From: Bacteroidia bacterium
Lineage (GTDB): Bacteria > Bacteroidota > Bacteroidia > Flavobacteriales > Schleiferiaceae
Reading direction: 5' to 3'
Assembly: GCA_030427785.1 (NCBI GenBank)
Contig: JAUICR010000007.1
Span: forward strand, 1-34,783
Length of the DNA stretch: 34,783 nucleotides
Shown here: positions 1,120 through 7,844 of the stretch, in pieces
How positions within the stretch are numbered: position 1 is the first letter of the stretch
Layout of the letters: each line of letters starts with the position of its first letter
Made by a program: the position numbers and the translations under genes
The notes under the pieces: generated by a model
Told to the model about the DNA's origin: nothing
The model's database searches: none
Seen by the model: the letters and a program-made list of their open reading frames with translations, nothing else

Positions 1120-1279
1120 TTTTATACCCAACCAATAGTGCTTTACCAGCGTTAAAGGTATAACGAGTGGGGATTTAACACTCAAAAAATATTTTTTACG
1201 ACTTCTTTTGGTGAATTGTTCGGTTGTACCGGGTAAGCTGGTTTTCAGTAAATTGGCTTTCCCGGTTTTTCTTCTAAAA

Positions 1280-1837
1280 ATGAACCTAGATAAGAATCTT
1301 ATACCAGCATGCATTAAAGAGGATCGTAAGGCTCAGTTTGAGCTTTATCGAGTGTGCTACTCTGTGCTTATGTCAGTATGCTTGCGATACGAAAGGAATA
1401 AGGAGGACGCAGAATTTGTGTTAAATAATGTTTTTTTCAAGATCTTGAAGAATCTGAAAAACTATGATCCTAATATTCCTTTTGAAGCGTGGATACGAAG
1501 AATAGCTATTAACACTCAGATTGATGAGTTTAGGAAAAAAAGTAGGAGCCAGATTGAATACCATGAGGCGCCAATGCAGCTTGCTAACCTAACCATGATG
1601 GATTATAACGAAGCGGATAAAATGTTTGATGCTGAAGAATTGGAAATAATGATTCGGACATTACCGCCTACCAGTCAGAAGGTATTTAACCTTTATGTAA
1701 TTGACGGTTATAATCATAAGGAAATTGGGGAGCAGCTGAATATAAGTGAAGGAACAAGCAAGTGGCACCTGAGTAGTGCCCGAGCTAAGTTGAAAGAGCT
1801 GATGCGGAAAATTTTGAACAATGTGGCAGCGGTGTAA
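1280..1837 (+). CDS. RNA polymerase sigma-70 family (ECF-type) sigma factor
   Basis: Region 2-like (RNKEDAEFVLNNVFFKILKNLKNYDPNIPFEAWIRRIAINTQIDEFRKKSR) and region 4-like (YVIDGYNHKEIGEQLNISEGTSKWHLSSARAKLKELM) motifs. The ATG at 1280 is more plausible than the GTG/ATG-like start at 1208 of the ORF track. Confidence 0.9.
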   Translation: MNLDKNLIPACIKEDRKAQFELYRVCYSVLMSVCLRYERNKEDAEFVLNNVFFKILKNLKNYDPNIPFEAWIRRIAINTQIDEFRKKSRSQIEYHEAPMQLANLTMMDYNEADKMFDAEELEIMIRTLPPTSQKVFNLYVIDGYNHKEIGEQLNISEGTSKWHLSSARAKLKELMRKILNNVAAV

Positions 1838-3048
1838 TGACGGAGAGAGAACTAGAAAAATTATTTAGATCAAAACTCAACAATAGAGAGTTTCCTGTGA
1901 ATGAGGAAAACTGGGCTAGAATGGAGAGTATTCTTGACGCCAATCAGGTAAAGGCAGGTGCCTACTATTGGCGTTCGGTTGCTGCTATTTTAATGTTCGC
2001 TTTTTCGATTGTAGGGCTTCAGTTGTATAATGCTAAAGTTGCCTCACATAAAGAAAACCTAATTGTGGCCCCTAGTTCGCAAGAAATAGGAATAATGCCT
2101 ATGGAAAGTCAAACGGAAACCTCCGAGCCTAGAGATGCGCAGGATAACGTAACAAACACATCCGTAGCCAGCTCTAGCGCAGCAGAGCCCAAACCTACTG
2201 CCGTTCAAGCAGAAAAAGCAAATAAAACCCTTGCCACGAATATTGTAACCAGCGAGCTATTGAGCGAAGAAGTGTATGCAGAAAGTTCAGAGGTAGCAAG
2301 CCAAGGGCGTTTCGAAAGCCAAGAGGGAATAAGTTTAATTGGTAAAAGTAAGCTGCCTGGTTTGAAGGTTTCGTTTGCTGGATTGACAGGTTTAAAGACA
2401 GTTTCCTCTTTGGAGGCTAATACATCACCAATTTCTAAAACGGATTATAAAGGAAATTTGTTCATAGTAGCAGGCCCGGTGTTTAGTGGATCTTTTAATG
2501 ATAATACTCTCGGAACCGGGTTTCAGGCTGGCTTGGCATATCAATATAAGTTTGCTAATAAGCTAAATATGGAACTGGGGGTAAATTATGTTCGCTTAAA
2601 CAATGTAGGCCTCACTAGCCAATCAGATAGCACCTTTTTCCACTTTGGCATGGAGCGGGTAGAAACAGAGTCCTTATGCGACCAGTTAGATTATGTAGAA
2701 ATACCGCTTAGCGTTTCTTATCAGGTATTACCTAAGCACGAAATTGGTTTTAGAGGATATGCATCACTTTTGGTAAACGCCAGCCAAGAAACCACAAAAA
2801 CTACCTATGCCTCAAAATCTGGAGTGCGTGTAGAGAATACATCGTCCAAAGGATATAATGAGGGTTTTAATCGTTATGATTTTGGAATTGGAGCATTTTA
2901 TAGATATACGTTTAATCAAAGCTTTAGTATGGGTATACAAGTTAATAGAGGCTTGGTAGACGTATCTACTATGGATGATGATTTGACGGACAACAGTAAT
3001 CATGTAAATCTCAATACTAGGATAGAGTTGAGGTACAATATTTTTTGA
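1837..3048 (+). CDS. Putative membrane-spanning anti-sigma-like protein with C-terminal outer-membrane beta-barrel domain
   Basis: Short soluble N-terminus, single TM (approx. aa 46-62, RSVAAILMFAFSIVGLQLY), about 140 aa Ser/Glu/Ala-rich linker, then alternating beta-barrel-like C-terminal domain ending in ...RIELRYNIF. ATG overlaps the sigma factor stop (TAATG). Confidence 0.75.
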   Translation: MTERELEKLFRSKLNNREFPVNEENWARMESILDANQVKAGAYYWRSVAAILMFAFSIVGLQLYNAKVASHKENLIVAPSSQEIGIMPMESQTETSEPRDAQDNVTNTSVASSSAAEPKPTAVQAEKANKTLATNIVTSELLSEEVYAESSEVASQGRFESQEGISLIGKSKLPGLKVSFAGLTGLKTVSSLEANTSPISKTDYKGNLFIVAGPVFSGSFNDNTLGTGFQAGLAYQYKFANKLNMELGVNYVRLNNVGLTSQSDSTFFHFGMERVETESLCDQLDYVEIPLSVSYQVLPKHEIGFRGYASLLVNASQETTKTTYASKSGVRVENTSSKGYNEGFNRYDFGIGAFYRYTFNQSFSMGIQVNRGLVDVSTMDDDLTDNSNHVNLNTRIELRYNIF

Positions 3049-3051
3049 TAA

Positions 3052-4170
3052 ATGAAGCGAATACTTGTACATATTAGTCTTTTGTGTGTGATACTAGCAG
3101 CCTGTTCAAAAGAGGCAGGGCACACAGATCAGTATGTTGATAATCACCGGTTTTTCCTAAAGGGAGAAGTAAATGGAGAACCCTTTGATATAAAAGCCGG
3201 AGAAGACGACTATTTTCTGGAGACTAGTTACAGTAGAGATAATGGTATAGTTATTATGGAGGGCACTTTAGCAAGGACGACCGAGCCAAATCGCAATGCC
3301 TTCAGTATTAAAATAAGAGGCGCTGAGGTTTCATCATCTCAAACTCAGTTTTTGGTAGACGAAAACATAGTTGAAAAAAACTATGCTTTTAGAGACAAAA
3401 GTGGTTTTAATTCACAACCTGAGAAGTATGAGATTTCTTTTTTTGGTGATACTACTTTGGCCAATTTAGAATATACCTGGACGTTTCCTGATGGAAGTTA
3501 CTCTAACGACCAAAGTCCTACCCGAACCGTAGATATAAATAGCTATGTAGATTTTCCGGTAAGTATGCAAACCAGCCAAAATGGTGGTTGCCAAAGTTTG
3601 GTAACGCATTACGTAAACTTAGCAGATGATTGCGATGGTACATTCCGTATGGAAATTCCAAGTACGGGTAGTATGTACAAAACAGAGGTGAAAACCTGGG
3701 CGGGTGATATAGACAGGGCCGAGTGGTTTTTAGATGGCAATCAAGTGTATCCAAACTTTTTCAACGAAATAGATATAAATCAAGTGCCGGGGGCAAGCGT
3801 ACTAAGCTGTGATATCTTATTTAAGGACGGTTGTACAAAGAGAATAGAGAGAGACCTGAGCGTAACAAACTATAACCCCTGCGTTACTGATATGTGGTAC
3901 AGCAAAAACAAACCTGTAATCTTTAATCCAAATCAGTATTCAACCATAGAGATTGAGTACTATGACAGTGCGGGTGAGCTTTATAGCTCTTATTACTCTA
4001 ATGTAGAAGGTGAGTTTAAAATTGTTTCTACTTCTCCATTTCAGCAAAATGAAAACGGGCAAAGCACTATACGCTTCTTTATGGAGCTAGACGTGATGCT
4101 CAAAAACGATCAAGGCGAAACTCTTTCTCTAAAAAATGTATTTGGAACTTTGGCGGTAGCGCACCCTTAG
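3052..4170 (+). CDS. Hypothetical lipoprotein with PKD-like region
   Basis: Signal peptide and lipobox MKRILVHISLLCVILAACSKE; 3 bp after the preceding stop; YTWTFPDGSYSNDQSPTRTV is PKD-like. Confidence 0.75.
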   Translation: MKRILVHISLLCVILAACSKEAGHTDQYVDNHRFFLKGEVNGEPFDIKAGEDDYFLETSYSRDNGIVIMEGTLARTTEPNRNAFSIKIRGAEVSSSQTQFLVDENIVEKNYAFRDKSGFNSQPEKYEISFFGDTTLANLEYTWTFPDGSYSNDQSPTRTVDINSYVDFPVSMQTSQNGGCQSLVTHYVNLADDCDGTFRMEIPSTGSMYKTEVKTWAGDIDRAEWFLDGNQVYPNFFNEIDINQVPGASVLSCDILFKDGCTKRIERDLSVTNYNPCVTDMWYSKNKPVIFNPNQYSTIEIEYYDSAGELYSSYYSNVEGEFKIVSTSPFQQNENGQSTIRFFMELDVMLKNDQGETLSLKNVFGTLAVAHP

Positions 4171-6524: not shown

Positions 6525-7844
6525 ATGGAGATTTTTATTCAAGCTTCTCAGTTTATACTGAGTCTTTCCCTTTTAATAATATTACACGAGTTGGGTCATT
6601 TTATACCAGCTAAACTTTTCAAAACCAAAGTGGAGAAATTCTACTTGTTTTTTGATCCATGGTTTTCGTTGGTAAAAAAGAAAATAGGTGATACCGAGTA
6701 CGGTATTGGGTGGTTGCCATTGGGTGGTTATGTAAAAATAGCTGGGATGGTAGACGAGAGTATGGATAAGGAGCAAATGAAACAAGAACCTAAGCCTTGG
6801 GAGTTTCGTTCAAAGCCAGCTTGGCAGCGACTTATTATTATGCTAGGAGGGGTTACCGTAAATGTGATTCTTGCCATTGTCATTTATACAGGTATGATGA
6901 TGCATTATGGCGAGGAAGTGTTGCCAAATGAAAACATCACCTGGGGTTTGGCGGTAGATAGTACGGCTGAGCAGTTAGGCCTTAGAGACGGTGATAAGAT
7001 TGTATCGATAGACGGGAAAAAGATAGAGTCTTTTAGAGATATTTCATTGGAATTGCTTTTGGGTGAGGCGGGCCAAATTGAGGTAGACCGAAATGGTGAA
7101 ACTCAAATGATATCCGTGTCGGATGCTCAAAAAGGAATGGTAATAGCCGCTAAAACGGAGCTGGTGAGCCCTCGTTTTCCTTATGTAGCAGGAGGTTTTG
7201 TTGAAGGGTCTGCTTCTGCAGAATCAGGAATGAAAGAGGGTGACTCGTTGATTGCTTTAAACGGCAAACCCCTTTACTTTTTTGATCAGTATGTAGAAGA
7301 AATTCCGAAACTAAAGAATGAAGAAATACACATAACAGTAGTGCGCGCGGGTGAAACCTTAGATGTGCACATGACCGTACCCGAGGAAGGTAAAATTGGG
7401 CTAAGGCCACTTGCTCCAGGTCATTTCTTCGAAATTGATTCTAAAAAATATGGCTTTGTAGAGGCGGTGCCTGCGGGCTTTTCAAAATCGAAAAAAGTGC
7501 TTACGGATTACATCCGTCAGTTTAAGCTAATCTTTAATAGCGAAACGGGTGCCTACAAAGAACTTGGAGGTTTTATTATGATTGCCAATCAATTTGACCC
7601 GGTATGGAACTGGGAAAAATTCTGGGGCTTCACGGCTTTCTTAAGTATTATGTTGGCCTTTCTTAATATTCTTCCTATTCCGGCCTTGGATGGCGGCCAT
7701 GTGGTGTTTGTACTTTGGGAAATGATAACAGGCCGCAAACCCTCCGAAAAAGTCTTAGAGTATGCTCAAATGGTTGGGTTTATAATTCTCCTTGGGCTTA
7801 TCCTTTTGGCCAACGGAAACGATATAATTAAGCTCTTTAACTAA
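6525..7844 (+). CDS. rseP: RIP (site-2) zinc metalloprotease RseP
   Basis: ILHELGHFIPAKLF (HExxH), two PDZ-like regions, C-terminal NILPIPALDGGHVVF motif. Confidence 0.95.
   Translation: MEIFIQASQFILSLSLLIILHELGHFIPAKLFKTKVEKFYLFFDPWFSLVKKKIGDTEYGIGWLPLGGYVKIAGMVDESMDKEQMKQEPKPWEFRSKPAWQRLIIMLGGVTVNVILAIVIYTGMMMHYGEEVLPNENITWGLAVDSTAEQLGLRDGDKIVSIDGKKIESFRDISLELLLGEAGQIEVDRNGETQMISVSDAQKGMVIAAKTELVSPRFPYVAGGFVEGSASAESGMKEGDSLIALNGKPLYFFDQYVEEIPKLKNEEIHITVVRAGETLDVHMTVPEEGKIGLRPLAPGHFFEIDSKKYGFVEAVPAGFSKSKKVLTDYIRQFKLIFNSETGAYKELGGFIMIANQFDPVWNWEKFWGFTAFLSIMLAFLNILPIPALDGGHVVFVLWEMITGRKPSEKVLEYAQMVGFIILLGLILLANGNDIIKLFN

Follow-up and report, generated by a model that had tools for sequence, protein, structure and literature searches.

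The window, i.e., the whole stretch of 34,783 nucleotides that was analysed, contains an operon on its forward strand that begins with the gene for a Das-like ECF sigma factor of 185 aa (1280..1837), assigned by Pfam and NCBIfam models and by a tree with the Das sigmas. The second gene encodes its putative partner, a Dma-type anti-sigma factor of 403 aa (1837..3048; ORF, Pfam, AF2 and Foldseek). This ORF is intact, its product ends in ...YNIF, and its ATG has 1 base in common with the sigma stop codon TAA (1835-1837), which bears out the gene overlap that the first-pass annotation had claimed. The sigma protein contains the Pfam domains Sigma70_r2 and r4_2, and is additionally matched by TIGR02985 and by a PG0214-type model, both below their cut-offs. 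A longer ORF with a TTG start at 1208 was rejected as the sigma gene, the start of which is the ATG at 1280.

The third gene (3052..4170, forward strand) encodes a lipoprotein of 372 aa with a PKD-like domain, although the PKD similarity is weak. The model of this lipoprotein is confident, yet a fold search with it gave only spurious matches to fluorescent proteins. Cysteines are conserved among the third-gene lipoproteins, which also carry ...FGxFAVAHP as a C-terminal signature. Upstream of the sigma gene lies a gene for a pfkB-type kinase. The operon is followed by a gene for a biotinyl-type protein and then by one for an RseP-type site-2 protease (Peptidase_M50 and PDZ; 6525..7844, forward strand), which lies in the same conserved neighbourhood. 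An RseP-type gene is also present near three of the other loci (L080, L081 and L083). The protease is a possible processing enzyme for the anti-sigma factor.

Predicted domain architecture of the putative anti-sigma factor

The AF2 model of the window protein, made from an alignment of 27 sequences, starts with a predicted sigma-binding module (anti-sigma domain, ASD) at aa 1-40 (1837..1956). It consists of two helices, 3-15 and 23-35, modelled with moderate confidence (62-80), and its motif is LFxxKLxxxxFxxNxxNWxxMExxLD. The first 35 residues rank among the best-conserved parts of the protein in the alignment of homologs. The module is followed by a single inner-membrane helix at aa ~41-68 (1957..2040; 40-68 in the AF2 model). 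The order of about 45 soluble residues and then one membrane helix had been proposed beforehand and holds, with the limits of the helix itself, first set at aa 46-62, corrected to ~45-66. As had been claimed, no N-terminal signal peptide is found in the window protein, and no conserved signal-peptidase site was seen after the helix in the homolog alignment. Summed over 27 homologs, the 15 residues before the membrane segment contain 73 K+R against 14 in the 15 residues after it, which places the N-terminus inside.

Next comes a disordered stretch at aa ~69-203 (2041..2445), with a pLDDT below 50 across most of 73-202. A linker of about 140 residues, rich in Ser, Glu, Ala and Pro, had been described here; its disorder and approximate length (~135 aa) stand, but its abundant residues are Ser, Glu, Ala and Thr, not Pro (S 22, E 15, A 14 and T 12 of 135 residues). 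Its sequence is completely divergent among the 27 homologs, while its length is steady at 127-175 residues. Such retention of length without sequence conservation would fit a tether that has to cross the periplasm.

The C-terminal part, aa 206-403 (2452..3045), is predicted to be an eight-stranded outer-membrane beta-barrel with an aromatic C-terminus. AF2 places the eight strands across 206-401, mostly with a pLDDT above 90, and Pfam recognizes PF13568 (OMP_b-brl_2) at aa 222-376 with 28.8 bits, above the curated cut-off of 27 bits, a domain that is also matched by 25 of the 27 homologs. A Foldseek search with the model gave the barrels of OmpA, OmpX, Ail and NspA as the closest solved folds; a PDB search with the sequence returned no meaningful relative. 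Conserved residues are found in strands and turns. The C-terminal domain was also checked for a soluble periplasmic fold, and a membrane barrel was predicted instead, in line with the earlier reading of a barrel ending in Phe.

Homologs and paralogs

The window protein has matches in 29 of the 88 genomes of its family. An initial search of genome contigs with the single protein as query gave no match; an alignment-based search led to eight named loci, with Owenweeksia and Cryomorphaceae MAGs as the relatives. The homolog set consists of ~27 proteins from this one family (Flavobacteriales, Owenweeksia-like). A sigma gene lies directly 5′ at every homologous locus where the contig extends far enough, so that the linkage to sigma genes that was checked for is present wherever it can be seen, and the two genes overlap by 1-4 bases at most loci. 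The order sigma, anti-sigma and then usually a PKD-type lipoprotein is constant across the ~27 homologs. The lipoprotein gene is present 3′ of the anti-sigma gene at nearly all loci; one locus (G004/L078) is without it and keeps the rest.

The window's genome contains further sets of this kind. One locus (L066, G000:C53) encodes a second fused ASD-TM-linker-barrel protein of 585 aa with its own sigma factor. Another (L067, G000:C202) is a split set, with a sigma factor, a 251-aa ASD-TM protein without barrel, a 135-aa secreted protein and a separate barrel protein with a signal peptide. A further pair (L068) is cut by the end of its contig.

Tandem anti-sigma modules

In several relatives the N-terminal unit of 38 aa forms a head-to-tail array, followed by one TM helix and one barrel. 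In genus g7, from the same family, it occurs three times in L010, L012, L014, L016 and L020 and four times in L008 and L011, with a period of 38 and once of 39. Two copies are present in L205, L207 and L211, which represent two further families of the order. The window protein itself has a single module. Repetition of the unit in tandem indicates that the ASD is an independent module. Wherever dS is unsaturated, it far exceeds dN in every copy (dN/dS by copy between L016 and L020: 0.011/0.108, 0.011/0.353 and 0.057/0.813), which argues that the extra copies are kept by purifying selection. There is an even chance that one molecule anchored in the outer membrane would hold several sigma molecules, as a multivalent store that sets a threshold or a graded response. 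A literature search on anti-sigma domains in tandem returned no papers of that kind.

Candidate promoter and leader hairpin

Upstream of the sigma gene, alignment of the loci and a pattern search revealed a candidate ECF-type promoter, CCCAACC-N16-CGT (1127..1152, forward strand). By reading, (C)CCAACC-N16-CGT precedes the sigma gene at all 13 aligned loci, always with the same spacing and once with CCAACC only, and the exact pattern CCCAACC-N16-CGT is present at the operon in 12 genomes. This is a typical form of ECF promoters. Its conservation before the sigma gene suggests autoregulation, in which the sigma factor would transcribe its own operon. Genome-wide scans gave 96 matches against 56 for the reversed control in the 16 operon-bearing genomes (summed), 17 against 23 in six genomes without a match to the protein (summed), and 3 against 6 in the window's own genome. 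An excess occurs in several operon-bearing genomes and is absent from the window's own. The matches precede varied lipoproteins and secreted proteins and define no regulon.

Just before the sigma start codon, the leader can form a terminator-like hairpin of 16 bp with a T run (1228..1271, forward strand). Its folding z is -5.4, compensatory changes occur at 9 of 15 consensus pairs, and 91% of cells are paired compared to 83% in shuffles. Similar hairpins precede the sigma gene at more distant loci as well, and an Rfam search with the leader gave nothing credible. A short alternative hairpin (TTCGGT...ACCG) overlaps the 5′ arm and is a potential competitor of the main one. The simplest reading of the leader hairpin is an attenuator; alternatively, it may serve as an operator, or may insulate the operon from pfkB read-through.

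Relation to Dma proteins and Das sigma factors

The defining features of Dma proteins are four domains and an ECF21 sigma factor encoded next to them (PMC13088901, citing Pardue et al., 2024 PNAS). In Bacteroides thetaiotaomicron, Dma1 and Dma2 pair with Das1 and Das2, and BT_1559-1558-1557 form an operon in which BT_1557 is a DUF4943 protein (PMC13088901). A search of the class for DUF4943 led to dma2-type operons at two Bacteroidaceae loci (L095 and L096), where the order of sigma, Dma2, DUF4943, the gene at the DUF4858 position and an FMN-type enzyme matches that of BT_1559 to BT_1555 (PMC13088901). This gene order makes Dma2 orthologs available for comparison. The comparison set comprised these two loci and further Dma-type proteins collected from the same family; those called Das1-like and Dma3-like were so labelled by their gene order and architecture.

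The profile of the ASD matches the N-termini of the Bacteroidaceae Dma proteins in a local match over 32 columns (prob 75, score 24.3), a score reached by none of 200 column shuffles (null maximum 16.0). The barrel profile matches the Dma set with prob 99.0. Dma barrels score 34-77 and ordinary OMP_b-brl_2 barrels of the window's genome 16-65, i.e., nearly as high, so that the barrel match is weak evidence of common descent. Of the two profile comparisons, the one with the N-terminal module gives the better evidence. In a sigma tree built with a quick method, with midpoint root and some long branches, the window-type sigma groups with the Das1-like, Das2 and Dma3-type sigmas; another five ECFs from the window's genome branch apart at 96% SH-aLRT. 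The FecI-like sigma of that genome (C185) falls outside the Das-type clade. With profile homology in the ASD and a sigma factor in the Das-type clade, the window protein would work like Dma, and judged by its sequence it most probably adds a new, distant member to the Dma kind, from a lineage new to it.

Proposed mechanism and alternative explanations

The domain order, the N-in signal, the disorder, the barrel fold, the sigma linkage, the Dma-like N-terminal module and the promoter-like element are all computational results. They agree with the architecture first proposed, an anti-sigma factor that spans both membranes, for which the AF2 barrel, the N-in charges, the sigma-linked homologs and the paralogous pairs of sigma and ASD-TM protein in the window's genome all speak. 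In the proposed mechanism the cytoplasmic N-terminal ~45 aa with their two-helix module would bind the co-encoded ECF sigma and hold it at the inner membrane, in which the TM helix would anchor the protein. The disordered tether of ~135 residues would cross the periplasm, and the OmpX/OmpA-like barrel, presumably inserted in the outer membrane, would fix the other end there. As we infer it, the barrel is a direct sensor of the outer membrane; a change at the barrel or elsewhere in the envelope would pass along the tether, and pull or proteolysis, for which the RseP-type protease encoded nearby is a candidate, would free the sigma factor. The freed sigma may then transcribe its own operon from CCCAACC-N16-CGT, including the downstream lipoprotein gene, and probably further envelope genes. 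Taken as a whole, the explanation of an anti-sigma factor across both membranes that holds back and releases its co-encoded sigma is considered quite likely to be right.

Three other explanations were weighed. That an ASD-TM anti-sigma factor and an OMP barrel were fused independently, giving a protein that works in a Dma-like way, is the less likely history. The barrel is only slightly more similar to Dma than to generic barrels, the split ASD-TM and barrel set exists in the window's genome, and the Bacteroidaceae Dma3-like proteins are without any ASD, all of which would fit such a fusion. A common origin is favoured instead by the homologous ASDs and by a domain order that recurs with the same sigma clade. 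Somewhat more doubtful is the idea that the barrel is an anchor only, with sensing at the inner membrane or via the co-transcribed lipoprotein, and with a tether that keeps the anti-sigma factor stretched or positioned. The split set, with its sigma, its barrel-less ASD-TM protein and its separate barrel protein, indicates that the barrel need not share one chain with the ASD-TM part, and the lipoprotein of the third gene is itself conserved. However, fusion and tether length are retained across ~27 genomes, strands and turns of the barrel carry conserved residues, and locus L078 keeps everything else without the lipoprotein. Finally, it is very improbable that the protein is a conventional outer-membrane barrel that has a long N-region, loses its signal sequence by cleavage and shares no more than a transcript with sigma: extended signal peptides exist and a single hydrophobic helix does precede the OMP domain, but the conserved N-terminal 35 residues resemble the Dma module, this module is duplicated 2-4 times in relatives with copies under purifying selection, and a conserved signal-peptidase site after the helix is not seen.

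A Dma-type anti-sigma factor at this locus would extend a mechanism so far described from gut Bacteroides to a different lineage, the Flavobacteriales, and points to a phylum-wide route by which the outer membrane may report directly to transcription. Across the homologs, the ASD, tether length, barrel and sigma linkage are conserved, whereas the linker sequence and the third gene vary. The module repeats in relatives, the conserved promoter and the covarying leader hairpin are the novel elements; repeated modules, hairpin and exact-spacing promoter offer testable handles.

Comparison with known systems

Eight-stranded barrels such as OmpA, OmpX and Ail resemble the predicted barrel fold of the window protein, which differs from them by the lack of a signal peptide and the presence of a cytoplasmic module and TM helix. 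FecR/FecA cell-surface signalling likewise puts an ECF sigma under control from the outer membrane. There, the anti-sigma factor and the outer-membrane receptor are separate proteins, whereas the single chain of the window protein is predicted to span both membranes.

Dma3-like proteins share the TM helix, linker, OMP_b-brl barrel and a sigma of the same clade (L127) with the window protein and its partner, but have the sigma inside their own chain. In the Bacteroidaceae examples (L127 and L129-L145) the ECF sigma is joined straight to TM helix, linker and barrel. A sigma/ASD interface was sought within these natural fusions; as the sigma runs directly into the TM helix without an ASD between them, they cannot reveal it.

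Dma1 and Dma2 (PMC13088901) share with the window protein the ASD, one TM helix, a long disordered tether, a C-terminal barrel and a sigma gene directly upstream; the ASD profiles are homologous and the sigmas belong to the same clade. The Dma2 operon also has a downstream third gene with a lipoprotein-like signal, which is DUF4943 there and a PKD-like lipoprotein here (PMC13088901). In contrast to Dma1 and Dma2, the window protein occurs in the Flavobacteriales, shares so little full-length identity with them that simple alignment fails outside the barrel, and is encoded in a different neighbourhood, with pfkB preceding the operon and the biotinyl protein and RseP following it. A covarying leader hairpin and a CCCAACC-N16-CGT promoter were found at the operon in the window.
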